Of a stretch of DNA of 64,000 bases, positions 6,176 to 63,844 are shown one piece after another; position 1 is the stretch's first letter; every line of letters begins with the position of its first letter. The DNA is from an uncultured Flavobacteriaceae bacterium (GTDB lineage: Bacteria; Bacteroidota; Bacteroidia; Flavobacteriales; Flavobacteriaceae): the NCBI GenBank assembly GCA_947500585.1, contig CANMSN010000001.1:496001-560000 (forward strand), given 5' to 3'. Both the position numbers and the translations under genes were made by a program. A model generated the notes under the pieces. The model saw only the letters and a program-made list of their open reading frames with translations. It was not told the origin of the DNA and made no database searches.

Positions 6176-6206
6176 AATGATTTGTTTTTTTAACTTACTA
6201 ATTCAT

Positions 6207-8621: not shown

Positions 8622-8637
8622 AATTGTTGATTTTTTT

Positions 8638-8660
8638 TGATACTGAAACAAGTTCAGCAC
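8638..8660. repeat. dispersed repeat, permease-junction copy 1
   Basis: This holds the palindrome CTGAAACAAGTTCAG followed by CAC, in front of the permease at 6207-8621. Near-identical copies lie at 13601, 16032 and 18499, all in the same position just upstream of a permease start. Read on the minus strand it encodes NLFQYQ, which explains the false N-terminal extension. Confidence 0.85.
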
Positions 8661-8676
8661 GAGTTGATGATATTTT

Positions 8677-11103: not shown

Positions 11104-11135
11104 GACTATTTATTTTTTAAATTTTTAGTTATTGA

Positions 11136-13574: not shown

Positions 13575-13600
13575 AATGCTATATTTTAATTGTTCGTTTT

Positions 13601-13623
13601 TGATGCTGAAACAAGTTCAGCAC
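13601..13623. repeat. dispersed repeat, permease-junction copy 2
   Basis: Same element as at 8638 with one change near its left end (TGATGCTG instead of TGATACTG). It sits 27 bp upstream of the permease start at 13574 and 17 bp downstream of the stop of the preceding gene. Confidence 0.85.
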
Positions 13624-13639
13624 AGGTTAATAATGATAA

Positions 13640-16018: not shown

Positions 16019-16031
16019 AATAATTCGTTTT

Positions 16032-16054
16032 TGATACTGAAACAAGTTCAGCAC
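16032..16054. repeat. dispersed repeat, permease-junction copy 3
   Basis: Contains CTGAAACAAGTTCAGCAC directly upstream of the permease start at 16018. The similarity to copy 4 at 18499 also covers a TTCGTTTTT stretch on its left side, so a little more than the palindrome is shared. Confidence 0.85.
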
Positions 16055-16067
16055 AGGTTGATGATGA

Positions 16068-18470: not shown

Positions 18471-18498
18471 AATTTCTAAAGAATTACTGTTCGTTTTT

Positions 18499-18521
18499 TG
18501 ATACTGAAACAAGTTCAGCAC
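18499..18521. repeat. dispersed repeat, permease-junction copy 4
   Basis: Fourth copy of the CTGAAACAAGTTCAGCAC element, 28 bp upstream of the first permease start. Junctions at 6175/6207 and 11103/11136 have none, so four of six permease genes carry it. Confidence 0.85.
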
Positions 18522-36936: not shown

Positions 36937-37722
36937 ATGAATATTTTAGACAAGATAACATTAGACAAACGGAAAGAAGTTGCACTTAGAAAAGGATTAA
37001 TTCCTGTTTCTCAGCTAGAACAATCTGTTTTATTTGAAAGACCAACTGTTTCACTTGCAAATAACTTACGAAATAGTAAATCTGGCATTATAGCTGAACA
37101 TAAACGCAGGTCTCCCTCAAAATCTGTTATTAATAATGGTTTAAATGTTCAAGATGTAGCAAAAGGCTATGAAGATGCAGGTGTTTGTGGAATGTCTGTT
37201 CTAACTGATGGAAAATATTTTGGAGGCTCGTTAGATGATTTGCTAACTGCAAGAGCAAGTTGCAATCTGCCTTTATTGCGTAAAGAATTCATTATTGATG
37301 AATACCAGTTATTGGAAGCCAAAGCTTATGGCGCAGATGTGATTCTATTAATTGCTGCAATTCTATCAAGGAATGAAATTAAACAATTCTCAGAATTCGC
37401 TAAAAGTTTAAATTTAGACGTGCTTTTAGAAGTCCATAACGAAGAAGAATTACATAAATCTATCATGCCAAGTTTAGATATGCTTGGTGTAAATAATAGG
37501 AATTTAAAAACATTTGAAGTTAGCTTAGAAACAAGTAAACAACTAAGTAATCTTATCCCTAACGATTTTGTAAAAATATCAGAAAGTGGTATTAGCAACG
37601 TTGAAGCCATTAAAGAATTGCAACCTTACGGATATCAAGGTTTTTTAATTGGAGAAAACTTCATGAAAACTGATAACCCAGGAAAAAGTGCAACCAAATT
37701 TATTAAAACTCTAGAAGGATGA
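36937..37722 (+). CDS. trpC: indole-3-glycerol phosphate synthase
   Basis: 261 residues, a TIM-barrel enzyme closing the indole ring. Signatures: [16 protein letters not shown] (catalytic Lys and phosphate region), [72 protein letters not shown] and FLIGENFMK. It overlaps the next gene by 4 nt (ATGA), so translation is coupled to the trpF-trpB fusion. Confidence 0.96.
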
Positions 37723-39548
37723 AACTAAAAGTTTGCGGGATGAAATATCCAGACAATATAACTCAAGTATCTGAATTACAACCAGATTACATGGGGTTTA
37801 TATTCTATGAAAAATCTTCAAGATATTTTGATCAACTGATTCCAAATGTTCCAGATACCATAAAAAAAACAGGTGTTTTTGTAAATGAAGAGTTAAATAC
37901 TGTCATAAAAAAAATAAATAAATATAATTTACAAGCTATTCAATTGCACGGTGAAGAATCTCCTTATTACTGTAATATATTGCGTAGCACGAAACTTATT
38001 TCATCAACCAAACCTATCGAAATAATTAAAGTATTCTCAATAAAAGATGAATTCAATTTTGATGTTTTAACACCTTATGAGGAAGTTTGTGATTACTTCC
38101 TATTTGACACCAAAGGGAAATTACCCGGTGGAAATGGATACACATTTAATTGGAATATTTTAAACAATTACCCTTCCACAAAACCTTTCTTTTTAAGCGG
38201 GGGCATTGGTTTAGATGAAGTTGAAGACATTAAAAAATTCAAACAAAGTGAGGCCTCTAAATATTGTTATGCCCTTGATTTGAATAGTCAATTTGAAAAA
38301 GAACCCGCATTGAAAAATATTTCAATGTTAAAAGAATTTAAAAATAAATTAAGTAATAAAACTATGCCGAATTACAATGTAAATGAAAAAGGATATTATG
38401 GTGAATTTGGTGGCGCATTTATACCTGAAATGCTATATCCTAATGTAGAAGAGTTACGCCAAAATTATTTAAAAATAATGGCAGAACCTGATTTTCAAAA
38501 AGAGTTTAATCAACTTCTTAAAGATTATGTAGGACGTCCTTCACCATTATATTTTGCTAAACGTCTTTCAGAAAAATACAATACTAAAATTTACTTAAAG
38601 CGTGAAGATTTAAACCATACTGGCGCTCATAAAATCAATAATACTATTGGTCAAATTTTAATGGCACAACGTTTAGGTAAAACAAGAATTATAGCCGAAA
38701 CTGGTGCAGGCCAACATGGTGTTGCCACAGCTACTGTTTGTGCTTTAATGGGATTAGAATGTATTGTGTATATGGGTGAAATTGATATTGCAAGACAAGC
38801 ACCAAATGTAGCACGAATGAAAATGTTGGGAGCTAAAGTAGTTCCTGCTTTATCAGGTAGTCGTACCTTAAAAGACGCTACAAATGAAGCCATTAGAGAT
38901 TGGATAAACAACCCTGTAGACACCCATTATATTATTGGTTCTGCTATTGGTCCACACCCTTATCCAGATATGGTCACACGGTTCCAAGCTGTGATTTCAG
39001 AAGAAATTAAATGGCAATTAAATGAACAAGAAGGACGTGAAAACCCAGATTATGTAGTAGCATGTATTGGTGGCGGTAGTAACGCAGCTGGCACATATTA
39101 TCATTTTTTACATGACGAAGACGTTGGTATTATTGCCGTTGAAGCTGCTGGCTTAGGTGTAGATTCTGGTGAAAGTGCCGCAACTTCTGTTTTAGGAAAA
39201 GAAGGTATTATTCACGGTTGTAAAACCCTATTAATGCAAACTAACGACGGACAAATTACTGAGCCGTATTCCATTTCAGCAGGGTTAGATTATCCTGGTG
39301 TTGGTCCTATGCACGCACATTTATCAAAAACGGGGCGCGCAGAATTTATGTCCATTACTGATAGTGATGCCATGGACGCAGGTTTAGAACTTTCAAAATT
39401 AGAAGGTATCATTCCTGCTATTGAAACATCCCACGCCTTGGCTATTTTTAAATATAAAACCTTTAAACCTGATGATGTCGTGGTTATGAGTTTGTCAGGT
39501 CGAGGCGACAAAGATTTGAATACATATATTGATTACTTTAAACTATAG
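37719..39548 (+). CDS. trpFB: fused phosphoribosylanthranilate isomerase / tryptophan synthase beta
   Basis: One uninterrupted 609-codon frame holds two enzymes that are usually separate. Residues 1-~208 are TrpF ([67 protein letters not shown]). Residues ~216-609 are TrpB ([37 protein letters not shown] with the PLP lysine, [43 protein letters not shown]). The linker KNKLSNKT is short. An internal ATG (38364) at the normal TrpB start is preceded by AT-rich DNA, so separate TrpB could also be made. A lost stop codon or a one-base change is the simplest origin. Confidence 0.92.
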
Positions 39549-49673: not shown

Positions 49674-51659
49674 CTATCTAATTTTCTTAAAAACCTCTAA
49701 ACCACTATCTAAAAATTTAGCATATTCAGATTCATCAGGAGTATACCCAATCGGCTCAATTAAAACTTGATTAGCGTCAGAATTTAATAACACATAATAT
49801 GGCTGTGAATTTGACTTAAAAAATTGCGTTTGAAAATTAGCCCATTTATGTCCATAATTTTTAAGTAAGCGCTTACCTCCATTAACTCTATTTACTTCAA
49901 CTTTTTCATCATCTGGTAAATCTTTTTTATCATCAACATAAAGAGATATTAAAACATATTCGTTACGTAAGTAGTTATCAATTTTTTCTAATGACCATAT
50001 ATGTTCTTCCATCTTTCGGCAGTTTACACAGGCATACCCTGTAAAATCAATCATTATCGGTTTATTGACTTCTTTTGCATAAGCAATACCCTCCTTTAAA
50101 TCTTTAAAAGTTTTAAGATTATTTGTAGAAGAACTAGGATACAACCAACTATACCCAACAGGGGGAGCTAAACCACTTAACAAAGTTAAAGATGTAAATG
50201 TTTTTGTTTCTTTATTTACTATAAACCCAGATGCTAAATAGATTGTAAATGCAGCTACCAATATACCTCCAGCAATTCGTGAAAATGATAATTTTTTAAT
50301 TGGAGAATCATGTGGGAACTTAACCTTACCAAACAGATATAATGCTAAACCTGTAAAAATAATAATCCAAAGAATTAGAAACGGTTCAATCTTTAATAGT
50401 CCCCAATGTTTTACTAAATCAGCATTAGAGAGAAATTTGAAGGCTAGAGCTAATTCAAGAAATCCTAAAATCACCTTAGTTGTATTTAACCATCCTCCAG
50501 ATTTTGGCAACGCATTCATCATATTTGGAAACATCGCAAACAATGCAAAGGGTAACCCTAAAGAAACTCCAAAACCTGCCATACCAGCTGTAAGTTGCCA
50601 TGCACCTCCATCTGCTGTTAGTGAACCCGCTAATAGCGACCCTAAAATTGGACCAGTACAAGAAAATGAAACAATAGCTAGGGTTAGTGCCATGAAGAAA
50701 ATTCCAATTAAACCACCTGCATTTTCACCTTGAGTCGTTTTATTAGTCCAACTTGATGGTAATGTTAATTCATAATACCCGAAGAATGAAAAAGCAAAAA
50801 ACATAAAAATGATGAAGAAAATGACATTTAACCAGACATTCGTTGATATCTCATTTAATATATCTGGATTAACAGAATCTAAAAGGTGAAAAGGGATACT
50901 TAATATTAAATAAACTAATAAAATAAAAAATCCATATAATAAAGCTTTTCCAATACCTGAACTTTTACTTTGATCGCCTTTTTTTGTAAAAAAACTAACC
51001 GTTAACGGGATCATAGGGAACACACAAGGTGTTAAAAGGGCCAATAACCCGCCAAGGAAACCCAACCCAAAAATAGTCCAAAGTGATTTTTCTTCTTTTA
51101 TTTCACCAGATAATAAAGTTACATCTTTAGGAGTCATTCCATAAAGCATTTTATTTACTGACTCGTTATCTATTGATTCATCTTTTACGATATTAATATT
51201 TTCTACTTTGTTAATACCATTTAGATTAAAATTCAAATCTACTTCTGTTGGCGGTAAGCATCTCTCATCATCACACACCATAAATTCGACTTCTCCTTCT
51301 ATAACTTCTGTACTATTTAAAATGGTTATACGCTGCCTAAATTCTGTTTTGCCTTCAAAGTATTTAATGCGCATTTCAAAAACAGGGTCGTCTATAACAT
51401 GACCTACTGCTTCTTTAGTTTCACCAAATAATTCATAGTTTTCTGAATCTTGGTATGAAAAGGTCGTTGGTATAGGACCATCTTCAGGAACATTTTGAGA
51501 ATACAGATGCCATCCAGATTCAATAGTTGCCTTACTTACTAAATCGTATTCTGTATCTGATATTTTTTCAACCGATGTTGACCATTTTACTGGTTCAAAT
51601 ATTTGTGAATGACCATTTAAACCAAATAAAATGGTTAAAATTAATATCAAATTTTTCAT
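49674..51659 (-). CDS. thiol:disulfide interchange protein, DsbD type
   Basis: 661 residues with signal peptide. N-terminal DsbD alpha-like domain (~20-165) with CDDERCLPP; a membrane domain of about eight helices (~190-470) with GGLLALLTPCVFPMIPLTVS and SFSCTGPILGSLLAG, each with its conserved cysteine; and a C-terminal thioredoxin domain (~520-661) with the redox pair CVNC in GYACVNCRKMEEHIW. It moves electrons from the cytoplasm to periplasmic thiols. Complete and normal; monocistronic by its spacing. Confidence 0.95.
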   Translation of the reverse strand: MKNLILILTILFGLNGHSQIFEPVKWSTSVEKISDTEYDLVSKATIESGWHLYSQNVPEDGPIPTTFSYQDSENYELFGETKEAVGHVIDDPVFEMRIKYFEGKTEFRQRITILNSTEVIEGEVEFMVCDDERCLPPTEVDLNFNLNGINKVENINIVKDESIDNESVNKMLYGMTPKDVTLLSGEIKEEKSLWTIFGLGFLGGLLALLTPCVFPMIPLTVSFFTKKGDQSKSSGIGKALLYGFFILLVYLILSIPFHLLDSVNPDILNEISTNVWLNVIFFIIFMFFAFSFFGYYELTLPSSWTNKTTQGENAGGLIGIFFMALTLAIVSFSCTGPILGSLLAGSLTADGGAWQLTAGMAGFGVSLGLPFALFAMFPNMMNALPKSGGWLNTTKVILGFLELALAFKFLSNADLVKHWGLLKIEPFLILWIIIFTGLALYLFGKVKFPHDSPIKKLSFSRIAGGILVAAFTIYLASGFIVNKETKTFTSLTLLSGLAPPVGYSWLYPSSSTNNLKTFKDLKEGIAYAKEVNKPIMIDFTGYACVNCRKMEEHIWSLEKIDNYLRNEYVLISLYVDDKKDLPDDEKVEVNRVNGGKRLLKNYGHKWANFQTQFFKSNSQPYYVLLNSDANQVLIEPIGYTPDESEYAKFLDSGLEVFKKIR

Positions 51660-51809
51660 AATATATTATGTTAGAAAAAAGAGTTATTACTATTTGATAA
51701 CCCTTATCATATCTTTTTTGTTTATTAATTAACGCTTTAAAGTTATTCCCTAACTTCTTTTTACACATACTGTGTAGTATAAAAGAAGATAGGGATAAAC
51801 CACCATTAT

Positions 51810-52568
51810 TTAATTAGACACTAAGCGTATACCAACCGTGTCGTGACGCTCTTCTGGAGTAACAGATGTACGGTAGGCACTACGACTGCGGGCTGCAGTG
51901 TTGTAGTGGCCAAAACTACCGCCACGTATTGGATGTCTCTCTCCTGTTTTTGGACCTTTAGGGTCAGTTTGTGCTTCGTGTGAGTATGGTGCGTACCAAT
52001 CGCTGCAATACTCCCAAACATTGCCATGCATATCATGCAGACCAAAAGCATTAGGTGCAAAAAGGCCAACAGGTGTGGTTTGTCCTCTATATTCTCCCTT
52101 TGCATTCCCATTATATGGATATTCTCCATTGAAATTTGCTTGCGATGTTGTTAAGTTATTACCTGTATGAAATGGTGTCAGTGTATTTGCACGACAGGCA
52201 TATTCCCATTCGGCTTCGGTAGGTAATCGGCAACCCATCCATTCAGCAAAATCTGTGGCATCTTGCCAACTTACAAATATAACTGGGCGGTTACCTCTAC
52301 CCCAACCTTTATCGCCTACTTTTTCTCTACCAGTAGCTTCACAATACGCATCGTATTGCTTATAGGTTACTTCGTACTTGCTCATTTTAAAAGCACTAAT
52401 CGTTACTTGGTGTTGCGTCTCTTCGAGATTTCTACCAACTTCACAAGGCGCACTTCCCATGATAAAGGTACCTGCAGGAATGGATACCCATTTTATTTTG
52501 GGCTTGGTTTGAGCGGTCGAACAAAGCCATACACTCATAAACACTAGAATTAATACATTTTTATTCAT
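51810..52568 (-). CDS. SUMF1/FGE-sulfatase-domain protein lacking the FGE cysteines
   Basis: 252 residues: signal peptide (VLILVFMSVWLCSTAQ), then a complete SUMF1 fold (IPAGTFIMGSAPCEVGRN, FKMSKYEVTYKQYDAYCEA, RLPTEAEWEYACRA, LHDMHGNVWEYCSDWYAP, IRGGSFGHYNTAARSRSAYR). In formylglycine-generating enzymes the segment after GGS holds two copper-binding cysteines; here it is HYNTAARSRSAY without any. It is therefore unlikely to be an oxygen-dependent FGE despite the sulfatases upstream. Last gene of the cluster, separated from DUF1097 by 87 bp. Alternative: a binding or non-sulfatase-modifying role. Confidence 0.85.
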   Translation of the reverse strand: MNKNVLILVFMSVWLCSTAQTKPKIKWVSIPAGTFIMGSAPCEVGRNLEETQHQVTISAFKMSKYEVTYKQYDAYCEATGREKVGDKGWGRGNRPVIFVSWQDATDFAEWMGCRLPTEAEWEYACRANTLTPFHTGNNLTTSQANFNGEYPYNGNAKGEYRGQTTPVGLFAPNAFGLHDMHGNVWEYCSDWYAPYSHEAQTDPKGPKTGERHPIRGGSFGHYNTAARSRSAYRTSVTPEERHDTVGIRLVSN

Positions 52569-52655
52569 TTAGTTTAGTTTAAAAAACACCTACTCTTTGA
52601 AAGGATTTTCGGCGGTCTCCTTAGTTAACTTTTTATAGTTATTTATTCGTTTTGG

Positions 52656-53195
52656 TTATGCCCCAAGTTGCGTTGCTATCTTACCGCCCCAGGCTTCGGA
52701 TATCCATCCCAAGGATAACCCTATGATTAAACCGATAACTGCGGTCAGTATAACTGGCGTAGTGATTGTTGCACCTAACGCAAAAAAAGTAGAACAACCA
52801 ATAAAAGCACCTGGAATAAAACCCAATGCCTTAATATGCGCTTGAAGGCACATACCAGCAGCACCTATGCCTACACCCAAAAAAGCACCAAGATAATTGG
52901 AATAAGACACAAGTAATGTCCATATTAATACCATAATAACACCCCAACAAACACCTGTTAGATTCGTGGCAAAACCACTCCTGAAACCTATCTTTCTTCC
53001 TCCAGCGGCATAAAACGTGGCCCAACCTAGAAAACCGGCGATACCAATGCCTTTAAAATTTAGAGGTTCTTGGATGCCAAGTCCTCCGTAGATAACTTCC
53101 AGCAAGATCCAAGATCCTGCCAAAATGCCCACACTGATGCTTACGCCTATGAGTCCTTTATTCATTTTTGATACACTTTTAGTTGCTTCTTGCAT
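52656..53195 (-). CDS. DUF1097 membrane protein
   Basis: 179 residues with about five membrane helices (~14-34, ~50-65, ~80-105, ~108-128, ~140-170), rich in Gly and Ala. SGFATNLTGVCWGVIM and GFIPGAFIGCSTFFA are typical of the DUF1097 family, which includes E. coli YcdZ and is suspected to be a transporter or channel. It lies 55 nt downstream of the UPF0261 gene on the same strand. In this setting it could import or export the compound handled by the two enzymes upstream. Confidence 0.8.
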   Translation of the reverse strand: MQEATKSVSKMNKGLIGVSISVGILAGSWILLEVIYGGLGIQEPLNFKGIGIAGFLGWATFYAAGGRKIGFRSGFATNLTGVCWGVIMVLIWTLLVSYSNYLGAFLGVGIGAAGMCLQAHIKALGFIPGAFIGCSTFFALGATITTPVILTAVIGLIIGLSLGWISEAWGGKIATQLGA

Positions 53196-53250
53196 AATTA
53201 TAAATGATTTAGATTAGTTGGTATATATAATAATTAAGGATATTCTCTAT

Positions 53251-54474
53251 TTATATCATATCTAGAAAAACTTCAACAGCTTTGTTTGAAAAAACAGGGT
53301 CATTAATATTCGCATCAACTTCTATAATATTGATTCCAGGGTTAAGCTTACTTTTAAGTCCATCGACAAAAGCTTTATCAGCAGCTGGATCCCAAAAAAG
53401 TTGTGGCTCATTTTTTTCATTTATAGAATCAAGCATGGAGTAGCCTTGTAACGGGATAATAAATGCTACTTTTCCTTTCGAAGCATTTGCCTTTTCCGCA
53501 AATGTTTCTCCAAGCTTCCAATTTTCTTCGGCTGTAGTCCTCATCAAGGTGACCTGTGGATTCCATTTATAAAAAAGACGATCCATATATTTAGAAGGTA
53601 TGGTATCGGGGTTTCCGAAATTGCACATATCTATACAACCTGGAGCTATAAGATGTGGAATACCTACTTGTCCTGGAGCATCTAACCTTGAAGATCCCGC
53701 ATCAAATACGCCTCCGCAAAGTGTGTCAGCCCATTCTGTAGTCGTAATATCCAGAGCACCTTGTACAAGACCTTGATCAATTAATTTCTCCATAGTTTTT
53801 CCTCCAGCACCTGTTGAATGAAATACCAGTACTTCATATCCATTTTGGTTAAGAGCTTCTCTACACGAATCAATACAAGGTGTGGTATTACCAAACATGG
53901 ATGCTGCAATAGTTGGTTTACCTTTTGATTGTTGACTTTTTTTAATTTCTAACATGCCAATCAATGCACCTACAGCATTTGTAAAAACAGACTCACTAAG
54001 CGGGTTTAAACCTGAAATATCAACTAAAGAAGGTATCATGATGATATCACTAATGCCTACGTAGGGAGAAACATCTCCAGAAGCAACCGTGGATACACAT
54101 ATTTTAGGCAACCCATAAGGTAAAGGCTGCATCCCAGTGGTAACAACGTTGGTTCCAGCTGTACCTCCCATACCAATAATGCCATCAAATTTTTCTTTCT
54201 TATAAAGATTTTCGATAATAATTCCCAAACCATTAGACATTACGGCTATAGCATTACCTCTATCATTTGCCTTTCTCAAGATTTCAATATTGGTTCCTCC
54301 TGCATTAGCAACCTCATCTGCCTGAATATCAATAGAAAAAACATCTGTTGCCCCCATTACACCGGTGTTAACAGTTATCACCCGAAAACCCTTTTCTTTT
54401 ATGAGGTCTATTATAAATTTATACTCTTCAGCTTTGGTATCAAATGCACCAACAACAACTACTTTTTTTGCCAT
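53251..54474 (-). CDS. UPF0261 / Tm-1-like ATP-binding domain protein
   Basis: 407 residues. KVVVVGAFDTKAEEYKFIID, GIIGMGGTAGTNVVTTGMQ, PKICVSTVASGDVSPYVG, AASMFGNTTPCIDSCREAL and FHSTGAGGKTMEKLIDQG are the hallmarks of UPF0261, the family of the N-terminal half of the tomato Tm-1 protein. No enzymatic activity is established. Family members are usually next to a PEP-hydrolase-like TIM barrel, exactly as here (gap 67 bp), and in plants and fungi the two are fused. Complete; the glycine-rich loops imply nucleotide binding. Confidence 0.92.
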   Translation of the reverse strand: MAKKVVVVGAFDTKAEEYKFIIDLIKEKGFRVITVNTGVMGATDVFSIDIQADEVANAGGTNIEILRKANDRGNAIAVMSNGLGIIIENLYKKEKFDGIIGMGGTAGTNVVTTGMQPLPYGLPKICVSTVASGDVSPYVGISDIIMIPSLVDISGLNPLSESVFTNAVGALIGMLEIKKSQQSKGKPTIAASMFGNTTPCIDSCREALNQNGYEVLVFHSTGAGGKTMEKLIDQGLVQGALDITTTEWADTLCGGVFDAGSSRLDAPGQVGIPHLIAPGCIDMCNFGNPDTIPSKYMDRLFYKWNPQVTLMRTTAEENWKLGETFAEKANASKGKVAFIIPLQGYSMLDSINEKNEPQLFWDPAADKAFVDGLKSKLNPGINIIEVDANINDPVFSNKAVEVFLDMI

Positions 54475-54519
54475 AATGCGTCTTATTTAATTATCTTTAG
54501 TTTTGTTTAATTGACTGAT

Positions 54520-54538
54520 TATCAGATTTTATCTGATA
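54520..54538. other. intercistronic hairpin in the UPF0261/PEP-hydrolase unit
   Basis: TATCAGAT-TTT-ATCTGATA is a perfect 8-bp stem directly after the stop codon of the upstream gene (transcribed leftwards). No T run follows, so it looks like an mRNA-stabilising or processing hairpin rather than a terminator. Confidence 0.5.
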
Positions 54539-54541
54539 GTC

Positions 54542-55378
54542 TTACTTTTTTAATGTCATGGCCTTGAACTTTTTAATTTGTTCTTTGATAGCAATTTCTG
54601 TTGGTAGTCTTTCCATAGAACTCGCACCATAGAATCCATCGATTCCTGTTACTCTTTCTAATACATATTGTGCATCATCTGGCATAGCAATTGGTCCACC
54701 GTGACATAACACAATAACTTCTGGATTAATCTTTTTACAGGTATCAACAATTTCTTGAACAAGTACGACACATTCATCTAATGATTTTGATGTTTGAGCA
54801 CCAATTGCACCACTTGTAGTAAGTCCCATATGCGCTACAATAATGTCTGCTCCAGCTTCTGTCATCTGTATAGCGCTTTCTTTATCAAATACATATGGCG
54901 TAGTAAGCATACCTAGTTCATGAGCAGCTCTAATACAATCTACTTCTAAACTGTAGCCCATACCAGTTTCTTCAAGATTAGCTCTAAAAACGCCATCTAT
55001 TAATCCTACTGTTGGGAAATTTTGTACACCAGCAAATCCTAGATCTTTAAGTTCATTTAAAAAATGATCTCTTAACATGAAAGGATCTGTACCACAAACC
55101 CCAGCTAGTACAGGCGTGTTTTTTACTGCAGGAATAACTTCATGAGCCATTTCCTTTACAATGTCATTGGCATTACCATAAGATAATAATCCAGCCAATG
55201 ATCCCTTACCTGCCATTCTAAAACGTCCTGAATTGTAAATAACTATTAAATCTGCTCCTCCTGCTTCTTCACACTTGGCAGAAAGCCCTGTTCCTGCTCC
55301 TGCTCCGATGATAGCTTCGCCTTTAGCTATTTTTTCCTTTAACTCTTTAATGATTTGTGTTCTTGTAACTACAGCCAT
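54542..55378 (-). CDS. phosphoenolpyruvate hydrolase-like TIM-barrel protein
   Basis: 278 residues. [86 protein letters not shown] and [20 protein letters not shown] are typical of the family annotated as PEP hydrolase or TIM-barrel signal-transduction protein, which is related to PEP mutase/isocitrate-lyase-like barrels. The true reaction is unknown. It is paired with UPF0261 downstream and follows the first sulfatase gene by 83 bp. It may cleave or rearrange a small acid derived from the desulfated substrate; inference only. Confidence 0.9.
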
Positions 55379-55461
55379 AGTTTTTTGTTTATGTGTTTAT
55401 TAATTATATTTATGTAAATGTTATTTGTTATATATTTTTAATTTTCAAGAGAACCTTTTAA

Positions 55462-56898
55462 TTAGTAATCATCACCATTAGCGCTTTTCTCTTGTGAATT
55501 TTTCCAAGACTTCCAAAGGCTTGTTAACTCAATTAATTTGTCAGTTTTAGTTTTTGCCAAATTTTTAGTTTCACTTGGGTCATCAATGATATTATAAAGT
55601 TCGAAAGAACTCCCTGCATCGGCACTATATATTTTGTATTCATCCGTAATTAACGCTGCTTGTTTTTTTATTGCAAACACCATTTCTTTCTCTCTATCTT
55701 CTTTATTACCTAAAACAATGGGTAACATGTTAATACCATCATAAGGCCGTTTGTATTTTGCAATATCAATATTAAGAATGTTGGCGATAGTTGGAAAATA
55801 GTCTGATGTAAAACAAGGTGCATTAACTTTAATTCCCTTTTTTATCTTACTAGGCCATTCCATAATACCGGGCACTCTTACGCCTCCTTCATATAGACTC
55901 CGTTTTCTTCCTCTTAATCCATTAGTTAAACCTTGTGTTCTTCCTGATACAGTGTTCCCTTCTGGACCGTTGTCACTGGTATAAAAGAGAATTGTATTAT
56001 CAGAAATTCCTAATTCTCGAAGCTTGTTTCTTAAGCGACCTAATTGATCATCCAAAGCAGTCAATACTCCATAATAATGTTTTTGGTCTTCAGAAAGCCC
56101 AGGATATTTTTTAGTATACACTTCTCCTGCCAACACTGGTAAATGGGGCGTGTGGAACCAAATAATACTCAAGAAAGGTTGCTGTCTATTTACTGCATCT
56201 TCTATAAATGGAATGGCACGATCCATAATAACACGAGAGTCATCACCTTGAAGGCTCTCTGTTTCAATTTCTCCTGGACCTGTCCAATAATGCGTTCCGA
56301 AGAGTTCTCCTTCAGTCAATTTCTCATTGATATCTCCAGAAATTTTTGGTGGAGTTATCATAGGATTCCAGGTAGGCACTTTTGACTCGGTTACGAAAGA
56401 CACGTCGAAACCATGCTCGCTTGGCGGGGCATAGTGTTCTTCATTTTCTGGTCTGCCCCCTCTATTGGCATCAAGAATATCTTTAGTTAATGTGCCTAAA
56501 TGCCATTTACCAAAATGCCCTGTTGCATATCCTCGTTCTTTCACCATTTCAGCCAGCGTAATTTCTTCTTTTTTTATATGGCCACAATTGGCATAACAAA
56601 TTCCGAATCGTTCTGGGTGTCTTCCTGTCATTACACTTCCACGAGTGGGAGAACATACAGATGAAGCAGCATAAAACCTAGTGAATTCTACACCATTAGC
56701 CGCCATGGCGTCAAGATTTGGTGTCATCAAATGTGGGTGACCATTATAACTTGTATCTCCCCAACCTTGATCATCAGCCATCAAAAGGATGATATTGGGT
56801 CTTTCCTCTTTAGAGGTGGCTAGAGATACCACTTTATTTTTATCTTCTTTACACCCTACAAAGCAAATAACCAATACGGTTAATAAAAACCTCTTCAT
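55462..56898 (-). CDS. S1-family sulfatase, lipoprotein
   Basis: 478 residues from MKRFLLTVLVICFVGCKEDK, a lipoprotein signal; a longer frame to 56940 lacks one and is rejected. The sulfatase signature CSPTR in SSVCSPTRGSVMTGRHPER supplies the cysteine that is converted to formylglycine. Metal site: LLMADDQGWGD; later FYTSDNGPEGN and GHFGKWHLG. It should desulfate a carbohydrate or aryl sulfate in the periplasm. It lies 19 nt after the second sulfatase gene, so both are transcribed together and lead into the PEP-hydrolase/UPF0261 pair. Confidence 0.93.
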   Translation of the reverse strand: MKRFLLTVLVICFVGCKEDKNKVVSLATSKEERPNIILLMADDQGWGDTSYNGHPHLMTPNLDAMAANGVEFTRFYAASSVCSPTRGSVMTGRHPERFGICYANCGHIKKEEITLAEMVKERGYATGHFGKWHLGTLTKDILDANRGGRPENEEHYAPPSEHGFDVSFVTESKVPTWNPMITPPKISGDINEKLTEGELFGTHYWTGPGEIETESLQGDDSRVIMDRAIPFIEDAVNRQQPFLSIIWFHTPHLPVLAGEVYTKKYPGLSEDQKHYYGVLTALDDQLGRLRNKLRELGISDNTILFYTSDNGPEGNTVSGRTQGLTNGLRGRKRSLYEGGVRVPGIMEWPSKIKKGIKVNAPCFTSDYFPTIANILNIDIAKYKRPYDGINMLPIVLGNKEDREKEMVFAIKKQAALITDEYKIYSADAGSSFELYNIIDDPSETKNLAKTKTDKLIELTSLWKSWKNSQEKSANGDDY

Positions 56899-56917
56899 AA
56901 CCTTTTCCTTTTGGCAA

Positions 56918-58447
56918 TTATTTTGTTTTATCCATACCAAACCCTCTCATTTGTCTTTCTTTTTCGGCTAGATCTCTTAAATGTTCTACTTCAGCTTTAT
57001 TGGTTTTATCCTTCCATGCAGGTAAAACGGGAACTCCCCAACTTTCTTTCTTTAAATCCGCTAGATCGTTATTCAGTGTCATTTGGTTACCCATTAGATC
57101 GGTCATTATCTGTAATTGGTCTTTGAATTCTGGTTTATTTACCAGATTTGTAGTTTCAAATGGGTCATTTTCCAAATCAAATAATTGGGTCACAATCTCA
57201 TTACCTACATTATACTTGATCAATTTGTACTGATTATTACGAACTGCTCTCTGAAAGTTTTTATATGCAAAGAACATTGCGTAGCGAACTTGTTCTGAAG
57301 CGCCATTAAGTACCGGTTTTAAACTTTTACCTTCAACAGTCTGCGGAATAACGTTCTCGGTCAAATCACATAAAGTTGGGTAGATGTCAAAAAGGTATGC
57401 AAAGCAATCCGTTGTCTTTCCTTTAGGAATTCCTGGACCCTTAAACAGTAATGGGACATTAATACTATGCTCATAAAGATTTTGTTTACCCATAAGCCCA
57501 TGTTGACCTACTGCCAATCCGTTATCTCCCGAAAAAACGATAATGGTGTTTTCTGTAAGACCTTTCTCTTTCAGCTTTTTTAAAACCCTTCCTATTTGAG
57601 CATCCAAATGGGTAATCATAGCATAATAGGCAGCTATATTAGCTCTTACCTCTTCTTTCGTCCTAGGATAACCAGCTAACCATTCATCACGTATATCTAG
57701 CTCTCCGTTATCAAAAGGATGCATCTCTTTGAAATTTTTTGGTACTGATATGGAATCAGGTTCATACATATCCAAATATTCCTTAGGCATTTCCCTTGGA
57801 TCATGAGGCGCTTGAAACGCCATGAACATAAAAAAAGGTTTTTCGGAATTATATTCATCTAAAAATCTTATCCCAGCATCGGCATAAAGTTCGGATGAAT
57901 GTTTATCAGAAGGAATATTTAAGCGCTGCTTTGAATAATCACCTCCTTTATCAAATTCATAAGTTGGCACTCGATATTGTCTGTGCATGCCTCCCAAAAA
58001 TATTTTTGATCCATCATCGAAGCTACGTATAAACGCGTCTTTTCCATTATGCCATTTACCTATATGAAAAGTATGATAACCTGCATTACCTAAGGTCTTA
58101 GGCAACGTTATGTGTGTTGTATCTATTGTGTTTCCTGTAGGATCTATATTGAATAACGCCCTACCTGTCATGAGCATAGCTCTACTAGGAGAACATACAG
58201 CCCCATTCATGGCACCCATAATATAGGCGTTCTTAAAAAACGTACCATCAGCTACCAATTGGTCTAGGTTTGGAGTAATGACTTGGCGATTACCTAGAGC
58301 ATTAATCGTATTTCTTGTTTGGTCATCAGCTAATAAAAAAATGATATTTGGCTTACTATCAACTTTTTTAGTTTGTGCTTTTTCACAACTGCCAAATAAA
58401 AATATTAGTAATTGTAAAACGAGTATACCAAATATTTTACTTTTCAT
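56918..58447 (-). CDS. S1-family sulfatase, lipoprotein, second type
   Basis: 509 residues from MKSKIFGILVLQLLIFLFGSC, a lipoprotein signal; the frame open to 58489 is longer but lacks one. Active-site region GAVCSPSRAMLMTGRALF contains CSPSR; metal site FLLADDQTRNT; later IVFSGDNGLAVGQHGLMGKQ and FHIGKWHNG. The DDQTRNT and GQHGLMGKQN segments place it in a different S1 subfamily from the neighbour at 55462, so the two probably act on different bonds. First intact gene of the cluster; an 11-copy heptamer array lies 220 bp upstream. Confidence 0.92.
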   Translation of the reverse strand: MKSKIFGILVLQLLIFLFGSCEKAQTKKVDSKPNIIFLLADDQTRNTINALGNRQVITPNLDQLVADGTFFKNAYIMGAMNGAVCSPSRAMLMTGRALFNIDPTGNTIDTTHITLPKTLGNAGYHTFHIGKWHNGKDAFIRSFDDGSKIFLGGMHRQYRVPTYEFDKGGDYSKQRLNIPSDKHSSELYADAGIRFLDEYNSEKPFFMFMAFQAPHDPREMPKEYLDMYEPDSISVPKNFKEMHPFDNGELDIRDEWLAGYPRTKEEVRANIAAYYAMITHLDAQIGRVLKKLKEKGLTENTIIVFSGDNGLAVGQHGLMGKQNLYEHSINVPLLFKGPGIPKGKTTDCFAYLFDIYPTLCDLTENVIPQTVEGKSLKPVLNGASEQVRYAMFFAYKNFQRAVRNNQYKLIKYNVGNEIVTQLFDLENDPFETTNLVNKPEFKDQLQIMTDLMGNQMTLNNDLADLKKESWGVPVLPAWKDKTNKAEVEHLRDLAEKERQMRGFGMDKTK

Positions 58448-58809
58448 TATAATTATATTTTCTTTAATATTAATATTCAACATTAACAATTTTTATGGTA
58501 GTTACTGTGTTGTACTTCCAACATAATACCCCCAATTCTTTTAAAGTAATTTCTTGCAAGGTCTACTGTGTAAAAGCTAAAGCTGTGAAAATTTGAATTA
58601 CTAATATCTATATTGGGCAACCAGTAAAGTTTAATTTTATGATCTGCTCGGTCATACATTTATCTCATTCTTTATTCTTTATTCTTTATTCTTTATTCTT
58701 TATTCTTTATTCTTTATTCTTTATTCTTTATTCTTTATTCTTTAAGATGTTAAAGGTTCTAAATTTCTTGCAAAGAAAGATTCTCTTTTCAACCAACTTT
58801 ATGCTCAAA
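58448..58809. other. intergenic region with heptamer array
   Basis: 362 bp upstream of the sulfatase operon. Apart from the heptamer array (58667-58743) it has no gene; an apparent 63-codon frame across it is only the repeat read in three frames. It presumably holds the sulfatase promoter, but I could not fix a convincing -33/-7 pair. Confidence 0.5.
58667..58743. repeat. heptanucleotide tandem repeat, 11 copies
   Basis: Eleven perfect copies of ATTCTTT (77 bp). Perfect identity implies recent slippage, so copy number probably varies between cells. It lies between the broken sulfatase and the sulfatase operon, ~220 bp upstream of the latter's first start codon. Confidence 0.95.
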
Positions 58810-59264
58810 TCAAACATTATTAAGAGTTAATAATTTTTCAAGATTTACACCTAAACCAAGATACCATTTACCTATACTAGCGGTATTGCAACCGTTATCT
58901 TTTAAAAATGATGCAAAAGTTACCCTGTTTTTTTAATTAGTGGTAGGTCATAACCCCAAAGCCCACCATTCTTTAATCGACTACGCCATGCGTATCGGCC
59001 AGTAATAATACCGTAACGCGTAGGTGTACATACAGATGAATTAGAATGTGCATCAGTAAATTGGATACCATTTTCAACAATACGATCCATACTTGGTGTT
59101 TTAATACTTGATTGTGGATTTAAGAAAGACAGATCACCATATCCCAAATCGTCAGCAAGTATGTAAACCAAATTTGACAATTTTTTTATGACTTCTTTTT
59201 TCTTCTGTACTTCGCTATATCGAAGAATTAGTATCGATATTGGCAGAATTATGCATTTTTTCAT
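58810..59264 (-). pseudogene. sulfatase, N-terminal fragment with frameshift
   Basis: Starts MKKCIILPISILILRYSEVQ (59264). The frame runs through VYILADDLGYGDLSF and the signature SSVCTPTRYGIITGRYAWR to LWGYDLPLIKKTG and a stop at 58920. Adding one A to the seven-A run near 58927-58933 restores LPLIKKNRVTFASFLKDNGC and then NTASIGKWYLGLGVN, after which similarity ends at a stop near 58810. So one base was lost from a homopolymer and the C-terminal ~350 residues are gone. A third S1 subfamily, different from the two intact enzymes downstream. Confidence 0.88.
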
Positions 59265-59280
59265 AATTATTTTAAAGTTT

Positions 59281-59326
59281 AAAAAAGGCATCAATAAAAC
59301 TTATTAAAGTAAAAAATGATGCCTCT
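59281..59326 (-). terminator. terminator of the TonB receptor gene
   Basis: GGCATCA (59287-59293) pairs with TGATGCC (59317-59323); on the minus strand a run of six T follows. It lies 68 nt after the receptor stop and isolates the receptor from the sulfatase relic. Confidence 0.75.
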
Positions 59327-59393
59327 AAATTAAACTAACACAAACTCAAAAATATTTTTAATAAAGTAATTTTAAGTATTACTATGCTTTCAA

Positions 59394-62300
59394 TTAAAAC
59401 CCATATCGCAATCCTAATGTAACTATAGGCTCACCAGAAATTAATTGAAAAGATTCTGCTGGGTTATTTCTAAAGAAAGATCGTTGATCAGCACCTGTCA
59501 CGTTTTGAGCTGCAATAGAAAATTGCATATTATCTGTGATTTCATAGCTTGCACGTAAATCTAACTGACCTCTACCTTCAGTATATTCAGGTAAAGCTGT
59601 TAATCCTTGCCCAGAAAGTGTTCTTAAAAAATTACTTCGTATGTTATAGGCAGCTCGTAAACTAAATTTTTCGTTTTCAAAATAAGCTACCGTATTAAAA
59701 TTGTGTTTAGAGGTGCCAGGAAACGCATCATCTGCATTTATATCATCATTATCAAAGCTTGCTGTTATAAAGTTGTAGTTAGCTTGAACACCAAAGTTTC
59801 TTAATGCATCTGAAATTATATCTAAAGGTTGGTTAAATCCAACTTCAAATCCGAATACATTAGCGTTACCAATATTGGTAGGCTGAGAAACATCGTATGT
59901 TTGGTTTTGAAAGTCGTCTAAAACACCAGCATCTACCATAGATGTTGTATCAAAACCTCCATCTTCCAGAACTTGATCAAACGAAACTTGAGATTGAACA
60001 AGAGTACCTACGTAATCAGATATATCCTTGTAAAAAACACTTAAAATAACTGCTCCTCCATACTTATTATACCACTCTATAGTGTTATCTATTTGCCAAG
60101 TAGTATATGGTTTTAGCTCAGTATTAGGAAGTGAAACACTCCCGTTTGTTCCATCAAACTGTGAATTTAAATTATTCATTGCACTCAAAGTTCCTCCAGG
60201 TGTTAATTCATTATACTCTGGTCTTGAAAGTGTTTTTACTAAACTAAAGCGATAGTTTAGGTTTTCGTTTAATTCGAACTTCAAATTTAATGAAGGTAAA
60301 AGTTGCCATTGGTCATCGTTAACTTCAGACTGTACTCTACCTAAATTTATTGGTCCTCCATTTTCTGCTTCAGGATCATTAAGTGTAATCGTTGTAAATG
60401 CTTTACCCGTATATTCAGTACGCACACCACGTAATCCTAAATTACCAGAAACTGGAACATTACCTATTTGGGTTTTAACATTTATTTGTCCGTAAAGTGC
60501 TAAGGTCTTTTCTTGAAATTCAAATAACGGTCCATTCTGTAAACGCCACCCTTCATCTGTTCCATCAGCAATACTTTGGTTTACTATATTCTCAGCATCA
60601 AATATATTCACATTATTACCAAAAAGAGGATGACTCCCTGGCTTGTAATTAAAAAAATCTGAATACGTATTTTCATATGTACTTATATTAGCTCTTGGCC
60701 AAGCATTCATTAAACCATAGTTATTACCAGGTAAAAAATTTGTTATGTATTCCCCAAAGGCATTATTCGCACTAACTGTTGGCACTGTACCCCCATTAGT
60801 AGATGCCAAGTAATCAGATAACGGCGTTCCATTTCTTTGAACCGCTGCAACAAAAAAGTCATTAGTCGATAATCTTGATCCAAAATCTATTGAAACATTA
60901 TCATTCAATTCCTTCGAGATATCAATCTTAAAAGCATTATTAGTTGCTCCCACATATCTATTCCATTGCACTATTGGTGCAGCCAAGTCATTACTTGTAA
61001 TTGATGATATCCAACTTGATTGAGCATCTTGACCTAATTCAAATCTAGGATAATCGGAACCGTCAAACATAAATGGTCCGTTATTGAAAGGTTGACCAGC
61101 AGCGGCACTTCTTCCACCAACTTCTAGTATTTGATTAAAGTCTAATCTAGAAAGAGAATAATCTGCCTCTACTTTCCATCCATTCTTTTCCCAAGTAGCG
61201 TTTAAACCACCAATCCAAGTATCGTTTAAATTATCATACCATGTAGTTTGATATAACATATTTGCGCCTTCGGCAAGAGTTCCATCGGCACTATTAAAAG
61301 CTCCTTCTGTATTGTATGCCTGCAAAAAATTATCAACAATGGTAAGATTTCCAGGTGCAAATACTTTGTTTGGGGAAATTACGCCTGTTACTGCATTGGT
61401 ACCAGGGTTTGGCCTAATCAAAGCTCGGTTACTAAAAGTTTCAAATCTTGAAAACTGCATATCTGCTACTACGTGTAAAGACTCAGTCGGCTTCCATTCT
61501 AAAGCGGCAGACATAGCTAAACGCTTCTGTTCTTCTCTAATTGGATTATTTGTTACGTTATTTGGAACCAATACATTGGTATATTCTGTATCTCCTCCAT
61601 CAGTACCATCCCATACACCATTACCATTGGTATCCTCTTTTAAACTTCTATTTGCTATTCTAGAAAACACTTGATCTCTTGCACGATCAGCTTGACTATT
61701 TAGAAAAGATACATATGCACCAAATTTTTCGTCTTTTGTTTTACCACCCAATATAGCACTTACTCGGGGTGTAAGCGTAAAAAAGCCATCATGCTGTGTA
61801 TCTGACTCACCACGAATGTTTATAGCACCAAAAAAGTTATTGTCATTTTTATAACTAGCCGATAAGGGCCTAAGCGTTTGAAAATTTACAAGCCCACCTA
61901 ATCCAGGTTCTATAAGACCTGCCTCTGATGTTTTATAAACTGTAGCGCCTTGAAGAATTTCTGGAGGTATTACATCTACATTGAATTGTCTGAACCTACT
62001 AATTCCCTCAACACCAGCTGAAAGTGGTTGTCTGCCATTAACTGTTACCTGAACAAATGCTGGACCAATACCTCTTATCGAAACACGTGAGCCACCATCT
62101 TGCCCTCCAGATTGATCTTCTTGAATTTGAACTCCAGGTACTCTACGCAGTGCGTCTCCAATATTTTCATCAGAAAAGTTACCAATATCTTGAGGCGAAA
62201 TAGCCTCTACAACACTTGTTGCTCTTCTCTTTATTGCAGTGGCACGCAATTGCGAAGCCTTAATACCAATGACAACTGCATCGAGTTCTCCAGCAGATTC

Positions 62301-62594
62301 TTCTAATGTAATTTTCAGATTATTCTGTCCGTTTACTGGAACTTCTAAAGTCTTAAATCCAATATAAGAAATGACGAGGATCGCGTCTTGACCAGTTACT
62401 TTAATGGAAAACTCTCCATCAATATTGGTTTGCGCTCCATTTGTTGTCCCTTTTTGCACAATGTTTGACCCAGGTAAGGGCTGCCCATTCGCATCTGTTA
62501 CAACACCATTAATTAGTTGCTCTTGAGAAAAAACAAAACAGCTTTGTAAAATAAGTACAAATACTACTAAAATTTTTCGTAAATTTTTTTTCAT
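59394..62594 (-). CDS. TonB-dependent receptor with carboxypeptidase-like N-terminal domain
   Basis: 1066 residues. Signal peptide (ILVVFVLILQSCFVFSQ), CarboxypepD_reg-like domain (~24-105; INGVVTDANGQPLPGSNIVQ, ISYIGFKTLEV), plug (~115-240; NIGDALRRVPGVQIQED, RVSIRGIGPAFVQVTVNGRQ) and a 22-stranded barrel ending in an aromatic residue (VTLGLRYGF). Such receptors import large or scarce substrates using TonB. There is no SusD-like partner, so it is not a standard SusCD pair. With sulfatases downstream and a hybrid-sensor remnant upstream, it probably belonged to a sulfated-glycan locus. Its own terminator follows. Confidence 0.93.
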   Translation of the reverse strand: MKKNLRKILVVFVLILQSCFVFSQEQLINGVVTDANGQPLPGSNIVQKGTTNGAQTNIDGEFSIKVTGQDAILVISYIGFKTLEVPVNGQNNLKITLEESAGELDAVVIGIKASQLRATAIKRRATSVVEAISPQDIGNFSDENIGDALRRVPGVQIQEDQSGGQDGGSRVSIRGIGPAFVQVTVNGRQPLSAGVEGISRFRQFNVDVIPPEILQGATVYKTSEAGLIEPGLGGLVNFQTLRPLSASYKNDNNFFGAINIRGESDTQHDGFFTLTPRVSAILGGKTKDEKFGAYVSFLNSQADRARDQVFSRIANRSLKEDTNGNGVWDGTDGGDTEYTNVLVPNNVTNNPIREEQKRLAMSAALEWKPTESLHVVADMQFSRFETFSNRALIRPNPGTNAVTGVISPNKVFAPGNLTIVDNFLQAYNTEGAFNSADGTLAEGANMLYQTTWYDNLNDTWIGGLNATWEKNGWKVEADYSLSRLDFNQILEVGGRSAAAGQPFNNGPFMFDGSDYPRFELGQDAQSSWISSITSNDLAAPIVQWNRYVGATNNAFKIDISKELNDNVSIDFGSRLSTNDFFVAAVQRNGTPLSDYLASTNGGTVPTVSANNAFGEYITNFLPGNNYGLMNAWPRANISTYENTYSDFFNYKPGSHPLFGNNVNIFDAENIVNQSIADGTDEGWRLQNGPLFEFQEKTLALYGQINVKTQIGNVPVSGNLGLRGVRTEYTGKAFTTITLNDPEAENGGPINLGRVQSEVNDDQWQLLPSLNLKFELNENLNYRFSLVKTLSRPEYNELTPGGTLSAMNNLNSQFDGTNGSVSLPNTELKPYTTWQIDNTIEWYNKYGGAVILSVFYKDISDYVGTLVQSQVSFDQVLEDGGFDTTSMVDAGVLDDFQNQTYDVSQPTNIGNANVFGFEVGFNQPLDIISDALRNFGVQANYNFITASFDNDDINADDAFPGTSKHNFNTVAYFENEKFSLRAAYNIRSNFLRTLSGQGLTALPEYTEGRGQLDLRASYEITDNMQFSIAAQNVTGADQRSFFRNNPAESFQLISGEPIVTLGLRYGF

Positions 62595-63011: not shown

Positions 63012-63844
63012 TCATGCAGCTACTTTTTGATTAAACATTTTAATTTTAAACTCTTCTATAGATTTATACCCTAAATAAGAGAGTATTCTTCTTCTATTAT
63101 ACCAAGTTTCTATTCATTGAAATATAGATAACTCAGCTTCTGATCTAAGCCAGTAATTGTGTTTATATAACCATTCTACCTTTAAGCTTTTAAAGAAACT
63201 TTCAGCTACTGCATTATCCCAGCAGTTTCCTTTCCTGCTCATAGATTGTTTTATAAGTCCCTTATAGCTTTTTAAGATATTGCTGAATTTATAACTAGCG
63301 TATTGAGTTCCTCTATCAGAATGGAATATAAGTTCTTCAGTAATAGTATTTGATGCTACAGCCATATTGAAAGCAGGAATGATAGTATCACTGGTACTTA
63401 ATGTTTGGCTCATTGACCATCCTACAACTTTTCTATGAAACAGGTCTATAATAACGGTCAAATACATCCAGCCTTGACCAGTCTGTATATAAGTAATGTC
63501 CGAGACCCAAACTTGATTTTCTCTATTAACTAAAAAATTTTGATTCAATATATTAGGGGCTATAGGATAGTTATGATTTGCATCTGTAGTCACTATAAAT
63601 TTACGTCTTCTTCTAGCAAATAATTTATTAGCTCTTATCAGTCTAGCGACTCTAGGTCTGGAAATACGATAACCTCGTTTTAACAATTCAATTCTAATTC
63701 TTGGAGCTCCGTAACTCTCATAACTATCTTGAAAAATATCATGTATTTCTAGGGATACAGCTTCGTTTTCTAACCATCGCTTGGATGGCCTGATTTCAAC
63801 CAATTATAATACCCGCTTTTACTTACTCCTAATATACTGCACAT
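63012..63844 (-). pseudogene. IS3 orfB transposase, frameshift plus stop codon
   Basis: Begins [19 protein letters not shown] (from 63844); at ~63787 one base is missing, and the frame shifts to [20 protein letters not shown]. The catalytic core is complete (WVSDITYIQTG, IIDLFHRKVVGW, FHSDRGTQYAS, NAVAESFFKSLKVE: the D-D-E triad). A TGA at 63114-63116 then stops translation after ELSIFQ; the normal end IETWYNRRRILSYLGYKSIE continues to 63012. Two independent lesions, so not active. Confidence 0.88.

Follow-up and report, generated by a model that had tools for sequence, protein, structure and literature searches.

A set of minus-strand genes, in which S1 sulfatases are followed by members of the uncharacterised families PF09370 and UPF0261 (together referred to as the pair), was analysed in a 64,000-nucleotide stretch of DNA from an uncultured Flavobacteriaceae bacterium (GenBank assembly GCA_947500585.1, contig CANMSN010000001.1, positions 496,001 to 560,000; this whole stretch is referred to as the window). 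The block is a genuine conserved cassette, identified in three genomes from two genera: the window genome itself (G000, locus L032) and two genomes from another genus of the same family, G228 (L031) and G1111 (L223). The gene set probably represents a true, movable unit of nutrient use, and its last steps appear undescribed. Our preferred and still tentative explanation is that it serves as an accessory cassette for the closing, catabolic part of a system for sulfated-glycan utilisation, in which desulfation would be followed by uptake, phosphorylation and a conversion by a TIM barrel. This explanation is based on the gene content and order, the block shared by three genomes, the sulfatase motifs, the glycan linkage in G228 and G1111, the fold and the phosphate-site signature; from these, we infer the substrate and the transport, kinase and lyase steps.

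The order on the minus strand, from position 62594 down to 51810, is given below, followed by the DsbD-like gene and by the transposase at the receptor end (basis of the assignment in brackets):

59394..62594, minus strand: TonB-dependent receptor of the TIGR01782 type, with a CarboxypepD_reg domain and without an N-terminal STN domain (family profiles)
58828..59294, minus strand: decayed third S1 sulfatase, CTPTR motif kept, rest lost, with a frame change (tblastn with the intact G228 copy)
56918..58489, minus strand: S1 sulfatase 2, CSPSR motif, lipoprotein-like signal, nearest solved chain 6hr5 (Pfam PF00884)
55462..56940, minus strand: S1 sulfatase 1, CSPTR motif, lipoprotein-like signal, nearest solved chain 6bia (Pfam PF00884)
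54542..55378, minus strand: PF09370 'PEP_hydrolase' TIM barrel, no signal peptide by inspection (Pfam)
53251..54474, minus strand: UPF0261 protein with the two domains PF06792 and PF23189, no signal peptide by inspection (Pfam)
52656..53195, minus strand: hydrophobic DUF1097 protein (PF06496), candidate carrier (Pfam)
51810..52568, minus strand: FGE-like protein (PF03781, FGE-sulfatase) with a signal-peptide-like start and without the FGE cysteine pair (Pfam)
49674..51659, minus strand: DsbD-like protein, which flanks the cassette in all three genomes (family profiles, comparison with G228 and G1111)
63114..63803, minus strand: IS3-type transposase at the receptor end, where G228 and G1111 carry FecR and sigma (family profiles)

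The proteins named in an earlier note on this DNA for the interval 51810-58447 were all found there on the minus strand, and all families exceed the Pfam cut-offs: the sulfatases with 175.5 and 164.1 bits (PF00884, cut-off 25), the FGE-like protein with 194.6 (PF03781, 23.3), PF09370 with 445.4 (33.8), DUF1097 with 85.8 (PF06496, 24.6) and the two halves of UPF0261 with 280.1 and 198.8, the latter protein also passing the NCBIfam subfamily model NF002674 (524.8 vs 335). Neighbouring genes in the interval are separated by -23 to 87 bp. The note had counted seven consecutive positions, but the interval holds six genes, and the seventh can only be the sulfatase remnant just upstream. It had also let the unit start at the sulfatases, whereas the TonB receptor, which is kept in G228 and G1111, belongs to it as well. 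This receptor passed the TIGR01782 model (489.5 vs 310 bits) and failed the SusC model (131.9 vs 368.25). No SusC/SusD pair was found in the cassette, and no SusD was present among the neighbouring genes in the gene list and the family scan of the window. The Bacteroidota-type promoter pattern, TTTG-N17-23-TANNTTTG, was not found in the cassette by a scan which is powerless, with 7 matches in the window vs 6.8 expected by chance.

In G228, the cassette order recurs at 80-94% protein identity (86% for the receptor), with an intact third sulfatase of 501 amino acids (aa) and with FecR. In G1111, the cassette was identified at 79-94% protein identity, preceded by an extracytoplasmic function (ECF) sigma gene, a 395-aa gene located where G228 has FecR, and a receptor bearing the STN domain; no STN domain was listed for the window receptor in the family scan. 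The recurrence of the whole gene order in another genus is more than chance. UPF0261 matches at E < 1e-40 were found in 2 of 71 genomes of the G228 genus, namely in G228 and G1111, while the genus of the window is represented in this comparison by its own genome alone. On the DNA level, the window and G228 share 80.7% identity over 51817-58363 and 82.4% over 58850-62455, and the G228-like DNA runs about 135 codons into dsbD (51250-51681, 78%), past which there are short matches only. High identity across the cassette which drops within dsbD is a pattern that a transferred or exchanged block could leave.

The window dsbD (49674-51659) itself looks mosaic against G228, with its first ~135 codons cassette-like and the remainder far less similar; overall, the DsbD proteins are 52% identical. 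At the other end, the remnant of the third sulfatase (open reading frame 58920-59294) aligns by tblastn over 58828-59219 and in two frames with parts of residues 16-149 of the 501-aa G228 copy. A tblastn search for FecR and sigma, which covered the window and the adjoining stretch of G000 only, gave no match, and an IS3-type transposase occupies their position.

A glycan locus adjoins the cassette in the other genus. Upstream of sigma in G228, genes on the same strand code for an 899-aa protein without a Pfam match, a Sde182-like protein, a 3-keto-disaccharide hydrolase and a beta-helix protein, followed by a sulfatase, a GDSL-lipase-like protein, a thioredoxin-like protein, a protein of glycoside hydrolase (GH) family 43 and another sulfatase. 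The beta-helix protein weakly resembles xylosidase chains (3vst, E 1e-5), which we take to be of the GH120 type. Beyond that series, a divergent TonB receptor-like gene with SusD, GH95 and an esterase was identified. In G1111, a matching series was recognised by gene order, length and BLAST labels over the part that was read, which extends to the divergent receptor gene. SusD-type genes lie on one side of the cassette in G1111 (L224) and on the other side in G228 (L226). GH95 and GH43 enzymes point to polymers containing fucose, galactose, xylose or arabinose.

Relatives of part of the G228 glycan locus are present in G000 to the left of the window (C1:460001-485145; L232, L233). Compared to G228, the 3-keto-disaccharide hydrolase is 80% identical, the 899-aa protein 63% and the Sde182-like protein 79% and 74%, the last in two pieces which are split by a stretch boundary. 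Three more sulfatases were found in this region, and its remaining genes had no match in the G228 stretches. The 3-keto-disaccharide hydrolase gene shares its strand with the cassette, the two being about 65 kb apart. From the neighbouring locus in G228 and G1111 and its relatives in G000, the simplest reading makes the cassette the catabolic end of a locus for sulfated glycans, which is in one piece in G228 and G1111 and split in G000.

Both intact sulfatases carry the formylglycine motif C-x-P-S/T-R (CSPTR in sulfatase 1, CSPSR in sulfatase 2) and have, by inspection, a hydrophobic start that closes with a lipobox-like cysteine. For sulfatase 1, chain 6bia is followed by the arylsulfatase 3ed4 and by carrageenan sulfatases among the nearest solved chains. 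The earlier note had listed a SUMF1-type protein in the same gene series as the sulfatases. This FGE-like protein has GGSFGHYNTAARSR where FGE carries GGS-x-x-C-x4-C, and no cysteine is present after residue 188. With the FGE active-site cysteines missing, maturation of the sulfatases by this protein was rejected; from its sequence, it is probably not the maturase. Among the three other PF03781 genes of G000, the one at C5:119611-120540 carries GGSFLCSDSYC, so that the sulfatases most likely depend on another locus for their maturation. For the radical-SAM maturase model TIGR03942, one weak match was obtained, far below the cut-off. The FGE-like protein was also dismissed as a common gene, since a match at E < 1e-50 was found in 1 of 60 relatives, which is the window's own genome.

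For the PF09370 protein, the best structural match of the model was 2P10 (Mll9387), with Z 42.9, a root-mean-square deviation (rmsd) of 1.3, 270 aligned residues and 62% identity. The second-best match was 4ml9 (Z 21.7, rmsd 2.7, 233 aligned), the title of which names a conserved phosphate-binding site, followed by phosphonopyruvate hydrolase (Z 18.9) and by methylisocitrate-lyase-like, indole-3-glycerol phosphate synthase (17.5) and TrpA (17.2) barrels at about 17-18. After strand beta-7 (222-226) come G227-G228 and after strand beta-8 (248-250) G251-A252-S253-S254; these residues are invariant or nearly so. From general knowledge of such barrels, we take GG after beta-7 and GASS after beta-8 to be a phosphate-site signature. 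The UPF0261 model matched Tm-1 with Z 47.7 and 38% identity over 385 residues, and 9MPY with Z 35.6, rmsd 7.0 and 32% identity over 390 aligned residues. The entry 9MPY is titled Saro_1862 from Novosphingobium aromaticivorans with bound acetovanillone; our guess is that Saro_1862 is the kinase MarK mentioned below. Complexes of Tm-1 are bridged by ATP.

In the route that is proposed here, the TonB receptor would take up a sulfated (oligo)saccharide, from which the lipoprotein S1 sulfatases would strip the sulfates in the periplasm. The freed sugar or sugar acid would then cross the inner membrane, possibly via DUF1097, a hydroxyl group would be phosphorylated with ATP by the cytoplasmic UPF0261 protein, and the PF09370 TIM barrel would cleave or rearrange the phosphorylated product. 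Transport by DUF1097 and the use of a nucleotide had already been put forward in the earlier note, and both are still steps that we infer. A kinase role of UPF0261 is suggested indirectly by the 9MPY ligand, by the ATP in Tm-1 and by a glycerate-kinase-family gene in three PF09370 clusters of the family which are devoid of UPF0261 (L033, L047, L051).

UPF0261 and PF09370 span bacteria, archaea, fungi and land plants. A 2016 study reported their co-evolution; in it, UPF0261 accompanies the TIM-barrel family in 491 of the 504 bacterial genomes encoding the latter, and plants have both in one fused protein (PMC5028733). A UPF0261 gene was also obtained in a virulence screen (PMC2364660). In the open-licence PubMed Central literature, no paper on UPF0261 together with a sulfatase and no function of UPF0261 was found. 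To place the cassette, 128 further loci with PF09370 or UPF0261 were compared, from which its own loci L031, L032 and L223 were excluded: 20 from Flavobacteriaceae, 20 from other Bacteroidota (two of which belong to the window's class), 80 from a genome scan (the best 80 of a longer list, mostly from other phyla) and 8 from plasmids. UPF0261 was found by tblastn in 116 of them. A sulfatase was present in the stretch in 7 of 20, 3 of 20, 3 of 80 and 0 of 8 loci, respectively, counts which are lower bounds because some contigs are short and the gene caller is simple. The pair in general thus occurs mostly without sulfatases (13 of 128 loci with one), which is the distribution that the earlier note had named as speaking against its reading.

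The link between sulfatases and the pair that the note had proposed nevertheless holds for the cassette as one conserved unit, and such neighbourhoods recur elsewhere in varied form. In L035, L040 and L042, the order is GH43, sulfatase, aldose epimerase, GH43, UPF0261, PF09370, cupin, DUF7133 and ThuA, with variants in L037 (without UPF0261) and L043; five of the seven sulfatase-bearing family loci share this arrangement or its variants. In L173, a 3-keto-disaccharide hydrolase, three sulfatases, ThuA, cupin, UPF0261, PF09370 and DUF7133 follow one another on one strand. In L074 (8723-12411, from a beta-proteobacterial bin), a gene of the sulfatase family with the motif CGPSR comes directly after UPF0261 and PF09370 on the same strand. 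The labels ThuA, cupin, GH43 and DUF7133 in these arrangements derive from BLAST to members scanned with Pfam; the label 3KD_ThuA mixes two families, both present in its reference protein, and was checked with Pfam in L044, L045 and L046 only, and PEPH_s54 denotes similarity to PF09370 only.

Other neighbours of the pair are 3-keto-disaccharide hydrolase, DUF7133, PQQ-type proteins, GH43, cupin, ThuA and glycerate kinase in other Bacteroidota, and ABC sugar transporters, Gfo/Idh/MocA proteins and cupins in other phyla. In a Pfam tally of 109 of the 121 same-strand neighbours (at most four a side, the 12 longest excluded), no family was counted in more than 7 of the 109; the NCBIfam tally was uninformative. 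DUF1097 was found in none of the 128 pair loci, and among 397 family genomes it occurs together with PF09370 only in G000 and G228, so it was rejected as a regular partner of the pair and as part of the wider set that the note had envisaged. By taking in DUF1097 and the FGE-like protein, the note drew this set too wide. With a sulfatase in 13 of 128 loci, in recurring but varied arrangements, and DUF1097 in none, the pair is a general module to which sulfatases are one of several attachments, and DUF1097 is seen with it only in this cassette. The link to sulfatases is mostly a feature of Bacteroidota and not a rule for the pair.

Outside the cassette, three DUF1097 loci of Flavobacteriaceae were scanned; L211 and L215 lie near short-chain dehydrogenases and AraC regulators, and L210 near an AraC regulator. 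A sulfatase was present in 1 of 11 other DUF1097 stretches, at the far end of L210. Beside UPF0261/PF09370 genes, PF09370 was also observed as a fusion to sigma-54 activators (L061:5095-6816, L064:8047-9792, L137:6705-8531) or to an AraC DNA-binding domain (L095:7435-8619), as if an enzyme-like domain had turned into a pathway sensor.

The two partners may have had different histories within the family, since the window PF09370 protein is closer to copies from other phyla, while the UPF0261 tree places its partner by the copies of the family. In this tree (quick method, 92 rows), window and G228 UPF0261 group with Arenibacter and Pleomorphovibrio copies (SH-aLRT 99), in which the pair lies beside a PF09370-sigma-54 regulator and PQQ-type dehydrogenases, the latter accompanied by 3-keto-disaccharide hydrolase or ThuA; this group adjoins most other Flavobacteriaceae copies (99). 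The window PF09370 is 63-78% identical to the 80 genome-scan copies (63-73% to those in other phyla) and 45-50%, in one case 30%, to other copies of the family. The idea that these family copies correspond to the second PF09370 of Firmicutes loci was not supported, with 43% identity at best.

Several observations weigh against placing the cassette at the end of sulfated-glycan breakdown. No glycoside hydrolase is present inside it. The third sulfatase and the regulators have been lost in the window, so the unit could be decaying in this genome, and the mostly sulfatase-free occurrence of the pair implies that sulfate is not its defining context. In PF09370, inspection of a 10-sequence alignment revealed no evident K-x-C-G-H, the catalytic motif of the phosphoenolpyruvate mutase/isocitrate lyase superfamily, and no activity is stated for either family in the open-licence literature found. 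The contexts of the pair are mixed, a Thermomicrobium locus having fumarylacetoacetase-like and molybdenum-hydroxylase genes. A replacement of UPF0261 by glycerate kinase in PF09370 clusters is possible, but a simple exchange is not the rule and the evidence for it is weak, because both coexist in L034, L036 and L039 of the family. The entry 9MPY, finally, suggests a phenolic ligand.

In an alternative reading, the pair serves the catabolism of one sugar acid as a general module, which came to lie next to sulfatases only by the usual gene reshuffling in sulfatase-rich Bacteroidota and shares no pathway with them. The absence of a detected sulfatase from 115 of the 128 loci agrees with this, as does the density of sulfatases: 30 were counted in G000 and at least 713 in the sum of 18 pair-bearing family genomes (not every candidate was scored in three of the 18), about 0.18 are expected per 20 kb, and 7 of 20 family loci is only mildly above this (binomial P 0.035), five of the seven being one arrangement or its variants. 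However, rare as the full block is (2 of 397 family genomes for DUF1097 with PF09370, 2 of 71 of one genus for UPF0261), its gene order is kept at 79-94% identity in three genomes from two genera, and different arrangements of sulfatases and the pair recur (L173, the L035 type, L074), so that we consider reshuffling unlikely. Less probable still is the degradation of a sulfated phenolic, for example from seagrass or algae, by arylsulfatases and a UPF0261 protein phosphorylating the freed phenol. Besides acetovanillone in a UPF0261 protein of 32% identity, this reading has in its favour that kinases begin hydroxyphenylethanone catabolism in lignin degraders (PMC12167813, PMC13101465); in N. aromaticivorans, a very similar pathway begins with the single-component kinase MarK (PMC13101465). 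Yet most of the solved chains closest to the sulfatases are carbohydrate sulfatases, with chains named arylsulfatase or choline-sulfatase close behind, the G228 neighbours are GH43, GH95 and 3-keto-disaccharide hydrolase, and in other phyla sugar transporters and dehydrogenases are among the neighbours of the pair. That the cassette PF09370 is a sensor instead of an enzyme, as the four fused copies might suggest, is very improbable: it stands alone as a 278-aa domain with no DNA-binding part, matches the 80 genome-scan copies at 63-78% identity and shares only 32-44% with the fused ones. Family copies that are likewise lone and paired with UPF0261 share only 45-50%, in one case 30%, with the cassette copy.

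The assignment to sulfated-glycan catabolism is thus retained as the preferred explanation. A bolder proposal, which we regard as doubtful though possible, is that UPF0261 represents a new family of ATP-dependent small-molecule kinases and PF09370 the lyase of the phosphorylated product. They would form a widespread phosphorylate-then-cleave route, fused in plants, which some Bacteroidota tied to sulfatases and 3-keto-sugar chemistry to complete the degradation of a sulfated polysaccharide. The cassette is well suited for discovering what these two widespread but uncharacterised families catalyse, since its sulfated-glycan context narrows the candidate substrates, and this chemistry would bear on the cellular role of plant Tm-1L and on sulfated-polysaccharide breakdown by marine-type bacteria.

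Two further features of the window are recorded here. Six tandem genes for proteins of ~810 aa lie at 3770-18521, two of which were scanned and are MacB/FtsX-type permeases, with outer-membrane efflux and HlyD-type proteins nearby. At 37719-39548, one frame of 609 aa contains a PRAI (TrpF-like) and a PALP (TrpB-like) domain.

Among known systems, the Hpe kinase HpeHI offers a possible functional parallel, since an ATP-dependent phosphorylation of a small molecule heads a catabolic pathway. It was rejected as a homologue of the pair on its authors' description, since in PMC12167813 it is a two-component enzyme related to rifampin phosphotransferase and partly to phosphoenolpyruvate synthase, and not to UPF0261. 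Saro_1862 is a member of the UPF0261 family, but its crystal contains acetovanillone. Mll9387 belongs to the PF09370 family and is the closest in structure, but its function is given only in the entry title, as 'putative phosphonopyruvate hydrolase'. The sulfatase-rich polysaccharide utilisation loci of marine Bacteroidota share with the cassette a TonB receptor and several S1 sulfatases, in G228 and G1111 also ECF sigma and FecR, and in G228 GH43, GH95 and SusD nearby. In contrast to these loci, the cassette is without SusD or a glycoside hydrolase and contains UPF0261/PF09370 and DUF1097, for which no described chemistry was found. Plant Tm-1 and Tm-1L consist of UPF0261 fused to the same TIM-barrel family, whereas the cassette has two separate genes in a catabolic-type setting and Tm-1 is known for blocking a plant virus.

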